A stretch of DNA of 64,000 bases, taken from contig CAIKNP010000001.1 of NCBI GenBank assembly GCA_903828785.1, positions 186,001 through 250,000 on the forward strand, in the 5' to 3' direction. The notes under the pieces were generated by a model. That model made no database searches, was not told the origin of the DNA, and worked only from the letters and a program-made list of their open reading frames with translations. The translations under genes and the position numbers were made by a program. Below, one piece after another: positions 26,459 through 30,795 of the stretch (position 1 is the stretch's first letter; each line of letters starts with the position of its first letter). Origin of the DNA: an uncultured Actinomycetes bacterium. Lineage in GTDB: Bacteria; Actinomycetota; Acidimicrobiia; Acidimicrobiales; RAAP-2.

Positions 26459-26941
26459 CTAGAGGTAGTACCCGGAGTGCAGGTAGACGCAGGGCACACC
26501 TTCGCTGATGTACATCACGTGATTCTTCGGATCGTCCTCGAGAGCGAGTCGAACGTCAAAGCCGTACACGCGTAACTCGTTAAGAGTGCTGCGCTTGTAG
26601 CTGTCAATGCCCGAATAGTCACCGTGTTCGCGCGTAATTAGCAGATCCCAGCGCAAACCCAATCGTTCGAGCCACTCGATGGTGTGGGGCTGCACCCGCC
26701 GCGGGCGACCGGTGACCAAAATGATCTGCAGCGAAGAGTCGAGTAGCTCGAGAAGCCGCTGTGTTTCGGCGATGACCGGATCGCTCCCGCAGGCTTCGAA
26801 GAAACCCTTCCAATCACCACGGTCGAGATAGTGTTGGCGCCCCGCGGCGTCGGCTAAGACGCCGTCAATGTCGAAGATGATGGCTTGGCCGGCCACCACG
26901 GGGGTGGTGCGCCAGTACCAGTGATCGGGATGTGGGGACAT
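26459..26941 (-). CDS. HAD-superfamily phosphatase, polynucleotide-kinase-phosphatase-like
   Basis: A 160-residue protein with HAD motif I FDIDGVLAD (the DxD nucleophile and acid), motif II VTGRP with the threonine, a lysine in SYKRSTL, and motif III in ALEDDPKN. The spacing resembles the phosphatase domain of T4 Pnk-like proteins and acid-phosphatase-like HADs. The kinase domain is absent. The substrate is unknown; nucleic acid ends or small phosphate esters are possible. ATG 26941 starts four bases from a -10-like TACCGT. It is divergent from the MprF-like gene. Confidence 0.78.
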   Translation of the reverse strand: MSPHPDHWYWRTTPVVAGQAIIFDIDGVLADAAGRQHYLDRGDWKGFFEACGSDPVIAETQRLLELLDSSLQIILVTGRPRRVQPHTIEWLERLGLRWDLLITREHGDYSGIDSYKRSTLNELRVYGFDVRLALEDDPKNHVMYISEGVPCVYLHSGYYL

Positions 26942-26989: not shown

Positions 26990-29959
26990 GTGAGTGGCGA
27001 AGCAATTCAGACCCGTAGCGTCGGATACGGTCAGCGGGTCTTGGTCCTGAGTGACCTGGAACTCGACGGCCACGTCCAGCCCGCTCGGAGTGCTGCGCAG
27101 CGCTTGGCAGACCTCCTCGGTGACCTCGATGACCCGGCCATCGTCGTCATCGCGGGAAACTTCTTCGCCCCGGTGGACGCCCTCACCGAGACGGTGGCGT
27201 CCGCCTGGCGCGCCCACCCCGAACTGCGCAACGCCATCGCCACTTTCTGTGCCAAGCCTGACCACGATTTCATTCTGGTTCCCGGAGCGCGCGACCACGC
27301 GTTGCGACACGACCAAGGCGCGCGAGCGCTAGTCGAGGCGCTGGGCATTGAAATCGTGGCCCACCTGCGACTCGACCTGAAAACCGCGAGCGGAAGCGAG
27401 AAGGTCGAAGTCGTGGCCGGCCGCGTCGAGGCACCGGGCGACGACCAGTACGTCGTTGAGCACCTCGACGATCCGCTTTCGCTCCCGCGTTTCGTCACCT
27501 CGCGGACCCTCTACCGCCGCTTCGGTGCGGTGTTGTGGTTGCTCCTCGCGGGCGTTCTCGGCTGGGACCTCTTTAACACGATGACTCGCGTGGTGGGTTT
27601 GATAATCCACCACCACTACAAGGTCCACGCTCCCCATCCCGAGGGCCTCGCGGGTAACGTGCTCTTGAATTTGGTCATTCTCGTCGTCGTCGAGGCGCTG
27701 GCCATTATCGTCATCAATAACGCCGTTCGGCGACGTTTTCGCTGGCGACACGCCGCGAGTGAGAGTGTGTTCAGCGAGCCCCTCACGCTGACCCGTGTTG
27801 GTGAACTCGACGCCATCGCCTTCGCCCTCGAGAGCATCGCGGCTGGCGTCAGCGGTGTCATCGTCGGTGGGGCCACGCGACCGGCCCTCGCCTACCTCGA
27901 CGAAGGTTTTTGCGCCTCACCCGGCCCCTCGCGCTTGGTCACCACCGAACGCGACGCCGCCTTGGGCCTGCCCAGTGTTTTCGTTGACGTGCAGCGCTTC
28001 AGCGTCATAGAACTCGAAGCTGGTGCCTCGGTAAATCTTCGTCTTTCCGGTAGTGGCGTCGACGTTCCCTCGGGCACCTGGCTGGAGCGACTGGTCATGC
28101 GCGGCGCCGTGCAACCCGGCTTGCCCGACAGCGACGAAATCGTCGGAACCTGGCCCGACGGGCAACCCTTTCCGGCCAACCCCACTCGTCTGCTCGACGG
28201 ACGTCGCCAACGCTCCATACGACGCTGGGCGAGTGGCTTACTCTTCCTCGACGGCCTCATCACCATTATCTCCACGACGTCGCCACCGCTGCGTAGCCAT
28301 CTCCGCGTGGTGCTGAACTACCTCCCCCTCGGTGTTGCCCAGTCGGCGGCCGTCGTGGCGGCCATCGCCGGAGTGGCCATGATCATGCTGGCCCGGGGAA
28401 TTCGTCGGGGTCAGCGTCGCGCCTGGTACGTCGCGCAGTTCACCCTCGCCGTGACCACCGTGGCGCACGCCACGCGCGGAGGCAGCGTGAACTCCTCGGT
28501 CATCGCCGCCGGCCTTTTCTTTTTCCTCCTCTGGCAGCGGCGAAACTTCACCGCGCAGACTGACCGCAGCAGCGTCGCGGCGACCCTGCCTCGCCTCGCG
28601 CTCATCGCCCTCACCGCGGTGTTCGCGGCGACCATCGGTATCGAAGCAGCGGACCGCAACCATCCAAACCTCCTGCTCCCGAGTTGGCCCACCGTCGTCG
28701 TGGCCTGCGCCGAACGGCTCGCCGGTATTTTGGTCATCAGGATTCCCGACCGACTCAGCGACTTCGTTGATCCCGTACTCCTGGTCATTGGCATTTCACT
28801 CTTCGTCACCCTTCTCTACGTGCTGTCACGACCAGTGGTCGATCGTCGCTTGTCCGCGCCCGGCTTCAGTGCCGAACGTCGCGTGGTGGAATACCGAGCG
28901 AGGGATATTGTTCGACGCCACGGTCGAGGGACCCTCGATTACTTCGCCCTGCGCGACGACAAACAATTCTTCTTCCTGCGCGACTCACTCGTCGCCTACG
29001 CCGTCTACGGCGGTATCGCCCTGCTCTCACCCGACCCCATTGGCCCGGAAGCCGAACGGGCCGACGTCCTAGCGGCCTTTCGAAGTTTCGCCGAAAGCCA
29101 CGGTTGGTCCATCGCCGTCATGGCCGCCGGAGCCGACTGGTTACCCATCTACCACGCCGCCGGCCTACACTCGCTGTACCTGGGTGACGAAGCCATCGTG
29201 GATATCCAGAATTTCACCCTCGAGGGGGGCAAGATGAAGGGCCTGCGGCAGGCCTGTACCCGTCTCGCGCGCCACGGCTACACCGTGGAGTTTTGTGATC
29301 CAGCCACTATTGATCCTTCGCAGGTATCGGGTGTCTTGGATCTGGTGGCCATGATGCGCCGTGGTGAAGACGAGCGGGGCTTTTCCATGATGCTCGGCCG
29401 ACTCTTTGACCCCAAGGACAAGGGGCTTCTCATGACCATCGTGCGCGGACCCGATGGCCGACCGGCGGCCGCGTGCCAGTTCGTGCCTTCGCCCGCCATC
29501 AAGGGTTTCTCCCTGGACCTCATGCGACGCGATCCCGGAGATCACCCCAACGGACTCATTGACTACGCCCTCTGTTCCACCATTGAACATTTGCGGTCCC
29601 AGGGGGCTCAGGGATTGAGTCTCAATTTCTCGGCTTTTCGCAGCGTGCTCGACGGGGAGCGTGGCGACGGAACGTGGACCAAAATTGAGCGCTGGACCCT
29701 GCTGCGAATTTCGGGCGTTTTACCCATCGCCACCCTGTGGACCTTCAACGCCAAATACCAACCTCGTTGGTTACCTCGCCACATCGTCTATCCGGCCATA
29801 GAGAACTTTGTTCCCACGGTGGCGGCCATTCTCCGCGCGGAGTCCCTCACGGAGATACCCGTGCTCGGTCGCTTTCTCGCCAACGACCCCACCAACCGTC
29901 CGGGCACGGTGGTGCCCCCCGACGTGCTCGCCGCGGCGCAGGCGGCCGACCAGTCCTAA
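26990..29959 (+). CDS. MprF/LysX-like phosphatidylglycerol lysyltransferase-domain protein with N-terminal phosphoesterase-like domain
   Basis: A 989-residue membrane protein. Residues 10-160 resemble a calcineurin-type phosphoesterase, but its metal motifs are altered: SDLEL for SDLHL, AGNF for AGDF, PGARDH for PGNHD. Two membrane segments follow (about 178-250), then a soluble stretch, then about five more (about 410-600). The C-terminal 350 residues match the DUF2156/LPG-synthase domain that moves an amino acid from aminoacyl-tRNA to a lipid in MprF and LysX. No lysyl-tRNA synthetase domain is fused, unlike mycobacterial LysX. The start is uncertain; GTG 26966 is an alternative. Its TAA shares bases with the stop of the convergent ATP-grasp gene. 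Confidence 0.8.
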   Translation: MSGEAIQTRSVGYGQRVLVLSDLELDGHVQPARSAAQRLADLLGDLDDPAIVVIAGNFFAPVDALTETVASAWRAHPELRNAIATFCAKPDHDFILVPGARDHALRHDQGARALVEALGIEIVAHLRLDLKTASGSEKVEVVAGRVEAPGDDQYVVEHLDDPLSLPRFVTSRTLYRRFGAVLWLLLAGVLGWDLFNTMTRVVGLIIHHHYKVHAPHPEGLAGNVLLNLVILVVVEALAIIVINNAVRRRFRWRHAASESVFSEPLTLTRVGELDAIAFALESIAAGVSGVIVGGATRPALAYLDEGFCASPGPSRLVTTERDAALGLPSVFVDVQRFSVIELEAGASVNLRLSGSGVDVPSGTWLERLVMRGAVQPGLPDSDEIVGTWPDGQPFPANPTRLLDGRRQRSIRRWASGLLFLDGLITIISTTSPPLRSHLRVVLNYLPLGVAQSAAVVAAIAGVAMIMLARGIRRGQRRAWYVAQFTLAVTTVAHATRGGSVNSSVIAAGLFFFLLWQRRNFTAQTDRSSVAATLPRLALIALTAVFAATIGIEAADRNHPNLLLPSWPTVVVACAERLAGILVIRIPDRLSDFVDPVLLVIGISLFVTLLYVLSRPVVDRRLSAPGFSAERRVVEYRARDIVRRHGRGTLDYFALRDDKQFFFLRDSLVAYAVYGGIALLSPDPIGPEAERADVLAAFRSFAESHGWSIAVMAAGADWLPIYHAAGLHSLYLGDEAIVDIQNFTLEGGKMKGLRQACTRLARHGYTVEFCDPATIDPSQVSGVLDLVAMMRRGEDERGFSMMLGRLFDPKDKGLLMTIVRGPDGRPAAACQFVPSPAIKGFSLDLMRRDPGDHPNGLIDYALCSTIEHLRSQGAQGLSLNFSAFRSVLDGERGDGTWTKIERWTLLRISGVLPIATLWTFNAKYQPRWLPRHIVYPAIENFVPTVAAILRAESLTEIPVLGRFLANDPTNRPGTVVPPDVLAAAQAADQS

Positions 29960-30795
29960 GACAGACGTCCGGCGATCGCCACTGCTAATCGGTCAGCGGC
30001 CGAAGGCTCGAAGGTCAAAAAGAGGCTGGGCTCAACGAGTTCGAGCTCCATCAATTGCCAACCGGACGGGGCCGCCACGACGTCGACGCGGGCGTAGAGG
30101 AGCTTGGCGAAGCGACCGACCAAGAGCTGTTCGGCGAGGGCCAGGGCCTCGGGCTCAGTAACGTCGCGGGTCATCTGCTCGCGGCGAAAGAGGGCGTCGC
30201 GCGCGTCGGCGGGCGTGTTGAGCATGGCCCCCTTGGCCATGGCGTGAGAGAACTCCCCGTCAATAAATATCATCGCGTGTTCACCAAAGAGATCAACGGT
30301 TTGCACGTAGGGCTGAATGATGACGCTGCGGCCCTTGGCGTGCAGGGCGGCGACGTGGGCACTGGCCCGCTCGGTTTCGCGGGCCCGGTAGCGATCGGCG
30401 TCGATGGAACCCGCGCCGACGGCTGGTTTCACCACGAAGTCCACGTCGGGAAAGATGGGCGTTTCCCCCCGTTCACAGAAACTCGTCGGAACGATGGGTA
30501 CGCCACTCGCCGCGAGGTCGGCCAGGTAGTGCTTGTCGGTGGAATACTCGACCACGTCGTAGGGGTTGAGCAAGCGAGGTCTCGCCTTGGCCCACTCGAG
30601 GAATTCGAGTCGACGAGGACTGTAGTCCCAGGTGGAGCGAATGACGGTGAGATCGTAGGACTCCCAGTCCACCGTGACGTCGTCCCAAACGCAGAGGTCA
30701 GCGTGCAGGCCAGCCCTTTCGAGGGCCGACAGGAGCAGTGGGGTGTCGACGTCGACATTTTCACCCCGGCACGTGGCTACGGCGACGCGCTTCAT
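29956..30795 (-). CDS. ATP-grasp ligase of unknown substrate
   Basis: A 279-residue protein of the glutathione-synthetase-like ATP-grasp fold. The N-terminal RSTWDYSPRR and NPYDVVEYSTDKHYLADLAASG segments, the VVKPAVGAGS nucleotide-binding lysine and glycine loop, and the late LYARVDVV and MELELVEPSLFL metal-binding acidic residues are visible. Relatives include uncharacterised actinobacterial ligases and, more distantly, the DcsG-type ligase. Its ATG overlaps the TAA of nuoN by one base (TAATG), so it is translated as the fifteenth gene of the nuo operon, although no role in complex I is known. Confidence 0.82.
   Translation of the reverse strand: MKRVAVATCRGENVDVDTPLLLSALERAGLHADLCVWDDVTVDWESYDLTVIRSTWDYSPRRLEFLEWAKARPRLLNPYDVVEYSTDKHYLADLAASGVPIVPTSFCERGETPIFPDVDFVVKPAVGAGSIDADRYRARETERASAHVAALHAKGRSVIIQPYVQTVDLFGEHAMIFIDGEFSHAMAKGAMLNTPADARDALFRREQMTRDVTEPEALALAEQLLVGRFAKLLYARVDVVAAPSGWQLMELELVEPSLFLTFEPSAADRLAVAIAGRLS

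Follow-up and report, generated by a model that had tools for sequence, protein, structure and literature searches.

A predicted LpxH-fold metallophosphoesterase domain, degenerate and split by a transmembrane hairpin, fused to an MprF/LysX-type lipid aminoacyltransferase

Lysyl-lipid synthases set the surface charge of bacteria and their resistance to acid and cationic peptides, although to our knowledge their regulation is poorly understood. MprF carries a flippase domain in the same chain as its synthase membrane region and LPG_synthase_C domain, normally without a fused lysyl-tRNA synthetase (LysRS), while enzymes of the LysX type have a fused LysRS and likewise consist of a synthase without the MprF flippase. 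The window analysed here, a stretch of 64,000 nucleotides from an uncultured Actinomycetes bacterium (contig CAIKNP010000001.1, positions 186,001 to 250,000), contains a gene that joins such a synthase to a different partner (Table 1). Its front domain is a degenerate calcineurin-fold metallophosphoesterase of the LpxH type, as predicted by modelling, and is interrupted by a transmembrane (TM) hairpin. This architecture is close to certain, as is the loss of the canonical metal site, and the fold, the fusion and the motif loss are each well supported. The protein is a variant of the known MprF/LysX-type synthases, not a separate kind of system. It shares the membrane region and the catalytic domain with MprF, but has the degenerate phosphoesterase with its hairpin instead of the flippase, a flippase-family protein (PF03706) being encoded elsewhere in the genome; unlike LysX, it lacks LysRS and has an N-terminal phosphoesterase module. 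LysX2, for which four TM segments are predicted and whose MprF-like domain is extracytoplasmic, is a different variant (PMC8974105). In one open-access library, no account of an MprF or lysyltransferase fused to a metallophosphoesterase was found, papers on lipid aminoacylation and on MprF/LysX architecture being judged by their titles and abstract openings.

In LpxH the ligands are D8, H10, D41, N79, H114, H195 and H197, and the acyl chains are bound by a helical cap that follows strand 6 and precedes the last helix (PMC6286764). For the window protein, the AlphaFold2 model of residues 1-405, built with 75 homologues, has a predicted local distance difference test score (pLDDT) of 86.9 and a predicted template modelling score (pTM) of 0.83. 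The top Foldseek match of this model is H. influenzae LpxH (E 9.9e-6), and VIA-align gives E. coli LpxH as the best solved structure (Z 17.5, root-mean-square deviation 3.0, 181 residues), rows 1-23 of its list all being LpxH entries. At least one fifth of the aligned structural-match rows cover model residues 12-390, and alignment to an intact free-standing relative (L031) places the domain end near residue 395 and the predicted hairpin after the fourth motif block and before the fifth. The initial annotation had recognised a degenerate calcineurin-fold domain ahead of the synthase, proposing a comparison of its predicted structure with LpxH and calcineurin folds, and both the LpxH-like model and the altered motifs bear this out. 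However, it had limited the domain to some 160 residues. So short a domain is ruled out, since the structural matches reach from 12 to 390 and the GHTH motif of the intact relative sits beyond the hairpin. Sequence searches say less about the fold: residues 1-180 searched alone in Pfam give only a weak DNA_pol_E_B match (E 8.7e-4, below cut-off), a family that we take to be a calcineurin-type B subunit, and a profile of mostly intact N-domains finds no useful match among PDB sequences (best E 0.0039, scIg12). The fold assignment therefore depends on the AlphaFold2 model and the Pfam matches of relatives.

All five motif blocks are altered in the window protein. Three of them (SDLEL, AGNF and PGARDH) had been noted initially and are present as described, and the fourth and fifth (VVAGRV and IVGGATRPAL) are altered too. 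Where LpxH has seven metal ligands, the window protein retains one: of the dinuclear set (D, H, D, N, H, H, H) only D22 is present, and it is also the only one left of eight metal or catalytic positions. The other seven are replaced, with A, R, A, G and T standing at five of these positions. The ligand Asn is followed by Arg in LpxH (R80 in P. aeruginosa) and by His elsewhere in the superfamily (PMC6286764); the intact fused relatives have Asn-His, in contrast to the Asn-Arg of LpxH, and the window protein has A-R, the ligand Asn having been lost. Judged from these replacements, catalysis has presumably been lost in this front domain.

The hairpin occupies the place of the LpxH cap. Both proteins have an insertion between motif blocks four and five; in LpxH the cap lies between H114 and H195 (PMC6286764), and the hairpin lies between the equivalents of these two residues, but a three-helix cap in one corresponds to a predicted TM hairpin in the other. 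The model helices span residues 179-206 and 220-250, with a hydropathy peak at 224-242. A location at the acyl-chain cap site favours a lipid rather than a nucleotide as the ligand of the modelled domain. Lys and Arg number three in the eight residues before the hairpin, five in the 16 after it and two in the 23-residue loop; because the flanks are Arg-rich on both sides, the positive-inside rule would place the loop outside the cytoplasm. This loop is rich in His. Among the 103 of 108 non-redundant N-domain rows that have enough sequence for a count, 71 have at least four loop His. In those 71 the loop averages 22% His against 1.8% in the rest of the domain, and its His content tops that of every other stretch of the same length in all but one (70/71). 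The trait follows the clade of the window's genus as sorted by the synthase tree, with at least four loop His in 69 of 74 rows (one or two in the other five) and in just two of the 29 rows beyond it (L106 and L111). Rows with all eight catalytic positions have none or one. A response of the loop to pH or metal is conceivable from its composition, if doubtful.

The C-terminal half is the LPG-synthase domain initially proposed: LPG_synthase_C is the sole significant Pfam domain of the fusion protein, scoring 213.2 bits where the cut-off is 27.5. The NCBIfam LysX model matches residues 410-960 and the MprF model residues 408-949, both below their whole-protein cut-offs, and one further NCBIfam match is weak. 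Structures matched by the sequence of this half include MprF, AlaPGS and LysPGS. MprF structures align with the model over about 560 columns and are also the top matches in a fold search with the full-length AlphaFold2 model (pLDDT 81.3, pTM 0.77), which like the shorter one was made from the window protein. On its sequence matches, then, the protein is an MprF/LysX-type lipid aminoacyltransferase. The initial annotation also stressed the absence of a fused LysRS; indeed Pfam and NCBIfam match no tRNA-synthetase domain in the protein, but this is less telling than claimed, being normal for MprF. Nor does the flippase family PF03706 match in the chain at E up to 1. Elsewhere in the window's own genome (96.48% complete) there are class II Lys/Asp-type synthetase (PF00152) matches, on contigs other than that of the fusion, and one separate PF03706 match in a 355-residue open reading frame (ORF). 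The donor is thus plausibly ordinary aminoacyl-tRNA, and the flippase for the product might be that separate protein, a guess from family membership given that PF03706 members also have other roles. The same genome has one LPG_synthase_C in total and three CDP-alcohol phosphatidyltransferase matches. Metallophos (PF00149) is matched nowhere in it with an E-value of 0.001 or lower, the control being positive in 14 of 14 reference genomes. A LysRS-like class II synthetase is split over two frames of 447 and 146 residues on another contig (G000:C9:28339-29350; L181, L182), through either a sequencing error or a real break.

The fusion recurs, as a search of homologues proposed in the initial annotation brings out. 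The window protein is matched in 32 of 41 genomes searched and its N-domain profile in 36 of 296 genomes of the class, its own genome included in both counts; the front domain and the fusion are therefore not a chance feature. When intact members lead the profile, 70 of 396 genomes of the phylum are matched, 27 of them weakly (best E at least 6.6e-9, partial profile), and these 27 may be ordinary phosphoesterases. After removal of 33 of 141 N-domain ORFs, each sharing its core with a retained row, the motif table holds 108 N-domains. Four keep all eight positions, one keeps four, two keep three, twelve keep two and 89 keep one or none, nine of the 108 being gapped at one or more catalytic positions (mostly contig-edge fragments). 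The motifs are thus changed in nearly the whole family sampled and not just in the window protein. The four complete rows are three fusions (L134, L136 and L138) and the free-standing L031. The phylum search added two complete fusions (L183 and L184; genomes G411 and G499), bringing intact fusions to five genomes, and one protein with five of eight positions (G360). Motif III reads GNHD in each of the five intact fusions and in L031. Against the Pfam Metallophos cut-off of 21.5 bits, L134 and L136 pass, L138 falls short at 19.3, and L031, from an order-mate of the window's genome (G026) and with the motifs SDLHL, AGDCFE, PGNHD, EHGH and GHTH, reaches 30.3. More distant free-standing actinobacterial metallophosphoesterases, with ORFs of 448-554 residues, match the same domain profile along its length; unlike the window protein they are unfused and have intact blocks where these can be read, the first block of several lying outside the aligned stretch (gaps) and so not being read. 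The replacements themselves recur, with the first His of GHTH changed to Gly in 92 of 108 rows and the motif II Asp to Asn in 68, a pattern that may owe part to shared ancestry. The first Asp, equivalent to D22, is present in 90. One relative (L034, G028:C199), with an ORF of 904 residues, has an extra hydrophobic C-terminal region beyond the LPG synthase domain and is perhaps another type of fusion.

In a tree of 36 chosen N-domain rows, the distant free-standing copies are outermost, followed by one further free-standing copy (L186) and then by the fused proteins. The intact free-standing L031 (as L198) is nested among the latter, so it has probably lost its synthase, to judge from this placement. 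By profile, no synthase gene lies beside the free-standing phosphoesterase at 13 loci (L186-L198). The synthase tree was thinned from 107 rows to 64. If ligands are not regained, the best trees give three losses of the intact set: in the G360 line, in the G150/G122 line and in the large group that includes the window protein. The order of the losses depends on the root, which is the distant free-standing outgroup in the N-domain tree and a midpoint, for drawing, in the synthase tree. Selection was compared in 15 close pairs that passed a similarity filter among 74 proteins, pairs that are not independent of one another. The ratio of nonsynonymous to synonymous substitution rates (dN/dS) is 0.058-0.336 for the N-domain and 0.013-0.178 for the catalytic domain. 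The dead front domain is therefore constrained; it is under purifying selection, less strict than that on the catalytic domain. According to the initial annotation, homologues with intact motifs would reduce the changes to simple sequence drift. Such homologues exist, but drift of a single sequence is excluded by the clade-wide loss, the three best-tree losses and the purifying selection, and drift as the sole account is rejected.

Why would a phosphoesterase fold be kept after its metal site has gone? The reading preferred here, with a probability of roughly 0.55, is that a lipid aminoacyltransferase has retained the pseudo-phosphoesterase as a module embedded in the membrane, with a lipid-binding or regulatory role. 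For the function of the fusion protein, including its ancestral substrate, present role, topology and loop, we infer the following. Six predicted TM helices and a cytosolic catalytic domain would form an aminoacyl-tRNA-dependent synthase, with the LpxH-fold module standing where MprF carries its flippase. With a TM hairpin for a cap, the former active site would sit next to the synthase and be turned towards the lipid head groups of the inner membrane surface. In the ancestral fusion the module was probably a working membrane-bound lipid phosphohydrolase or pyrophosphohydrolase that shared its lipid pool with the synthase and might, for instance, have made or cleared the acceptor lipid; that the intact fusion was catalytic is likely. 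In the lineage of the window, catalysis would have been lost and the fold retained as a pseudoenzyme. The dead module would most likely bind a lipid head group or position the synthase, thereby regulating it or presenting the acceptor, although a present lipid-binding or regulatory role taken by itself has about even odds. In the window's clade the His-rich outer loop may add a response to pH or metal. Ordinary aminoacyl-tRNA would serve as donor and a separate PF03706 protein would probably flip the product. Vps29 and DNA polymerase B subunits, calcineurin-type folds that are also among the structural matches of the front domain, are largely non-catalytic; they are soluble protein-protein scaffolds and not membrane-bound.

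Several observations weigh against a retained module. In 12 of 15 pairs the N-domain has the higher dN/dS and so evolves faster than the catalytic domain. One order-mate (L027, G027:C67) has a shortened N-domain without the hairpin and the middle motifs, a partial deletion that by its sequence is front-domain erosion in progress, and another (L026) has a 613-residue synthase ORF with no N-domain found, its contig starting only about 0.8 kb upstream; the front domain is thus not always needed. LPG_synthase_C occurs anywhere in the genome in only four of 17 chosen genomes with free-standing copies and is absent from 13, so the phosphoesterase is independent of the synthase there. Proteins with three to five positions left may still bind metal. 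Finally, if the starred branches of the synthase tree are taken by themselves, the intact set requires no more than one change, and support for the position of the G360 line is weak (89/66 in the synthase tree, an open fork in the N-domain tree), so three losses is the best-tree count and not a firm minimum. The rate difference and the two eroded or missing domains would also suit a structural remnant, retained only because the synthase must be anchored in the membrane at its N-terminus or helped to fold, and having no ligand or regulatory role. This is the strongest alternative but an unlikely one: a dN/dS of 0.06-0.34 and a confidently folded model speak against it, as do the recurring replacements (Gly in 92/108 at the first His of GHTH), part of which shared ancestry may explain, and a His-rich loop in the window's clade would be superfluous in a mere remnant.

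That the front domain is still an enzyme of unusual chemistry, using one metal or none through D22 and new residues, is improbable. Its first Asp is widely retained and its fold is predicted to be intact, but in the window protein none of the other seven positions has its canonical residue, and in H. influenzae LpxH changing a single ligand residue to Ala costs three to five orders of magnitude (PMC6286764). A chance or convergent likeness to phosphoesterases, for which the sub-threshold Pfam match of the N-terminus of the window protein might be taken, is hardly credible; fused homologues form a continuous series whose end members exceed the Pfam Metallophos cut-off, and the model resembles LpxH in its fold. 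Chance resemblance is rejected on these two grounds.

Table 1. Coordinates of the fusion gene and its parts, in window positions
Feature	Position	Strand	Basis
Whole gene: fusion of degenerate metallophosphoesterase and MprF/LysX-type synthase	26990..29959	+	989 aa, GTG start
Complete predicted LpxH-fold metallophosphoesterase domain, degenerate, split by TM hairpin (about residues 14-395)	27029..28174	+	AlphaFold2 model, LpxH structural match, alignment coverage
Motif I SDLEL (residues 21-25; canonical SDxH; D22 kept, H to E24)	27050..27064	+	
Motif II AGNF (residues 55-58; canonical GD; D to N57)	27152..27163	+	
Motif III PGARDH (residues 98-103; canonical GNHD; N to A100, H to R101)	27281..27298	+	
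Motif IV VVAGRV (canonical VEHGH; ligand His to A143)	27410..27427	+	
Predicted TM hairpin between motifs IV and V, at the LpxH cap site (residues 179-250)	27524..27739	+	Model helices, hydropathy
His-rich hairpin loop, predicted extracytoplasmic (residues 200-222; 5 His in 23)	27587..27655	+	
Motif V IVGGATRPAL (canonical TGHTHxPE; both His gone: G294, T296)	27860..27889	+	
Synthase membrane region (residues 398-613; six model helices of at least 16 residues)	28181..28828	+	
LPG_synthase_C catalytic domain (residues 640-934)	28907..29791	+	PF09924 E 5.6e-63; AlaPGS/LysPGS structures align

The ORF is uninterrupted from its GTG start to its stop. A TTG at 26885 would add 35 residues, but homology in most same-genus relatives begins at residues 1-8 of the GTG version, which favours the GTG. 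The order hemE, hemH, hemY, HAD, fusion, ATP-grasp, nuoN, nuoM is complete in 29 of the 53 related loci that exceed 12.5 kb; the HAD gene is present in 48 of these loci and the ATP-grasp gene in 43. In the window, the HAD-family gene (26459-26941, minus strand; Pfam HAD_PNKP E 9.1e-11 over 26459-26929) is divergent, its ATG at 26941 lying about 48 bp from the start of the fusion. A functional link between the two is possible, because the HAD gene is present in so many of the long loci. The ATP-grasp gene (29956-30795, minus strand) is placed tail-to-tail with a 4 bp overlap at the fusion stop, and resembles the D-cycloserine synthetase DcsG below cut-off (251.8 against 360 bits).

Many genomes of the lineage are seemingly derived from peat, to go by metagenome-assembled genome names such as palsa, bog and fen. 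One speculative reading, itself rather improbable, is that this actinobacterial lineage turned an enzyme that dephosphorylated and aminoacylated lipids into a gated aminoacyltransferase, in which the dead domain would read the inner head group and the His loop pH or metal, while the intact relatives would be two-step enzymes making their own acceptor. If so, a single polypeptide would tune surface charge to acidity, and the remodelling of lipids in two steps by the intact relatives would be an enzyme activity not described before. Apart from this, the fusion ranges from eight intact positions down to one or none, making the step from enzyme to pseudoenzyme traceable and testable within a single domain. 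The His-rich loop provides a concrete sensor hypothesis, and the existence of intact versions suggests that lipid phosphohydrolysis is a so far unrecognised partner of aminoacyl-lipid synthesis.

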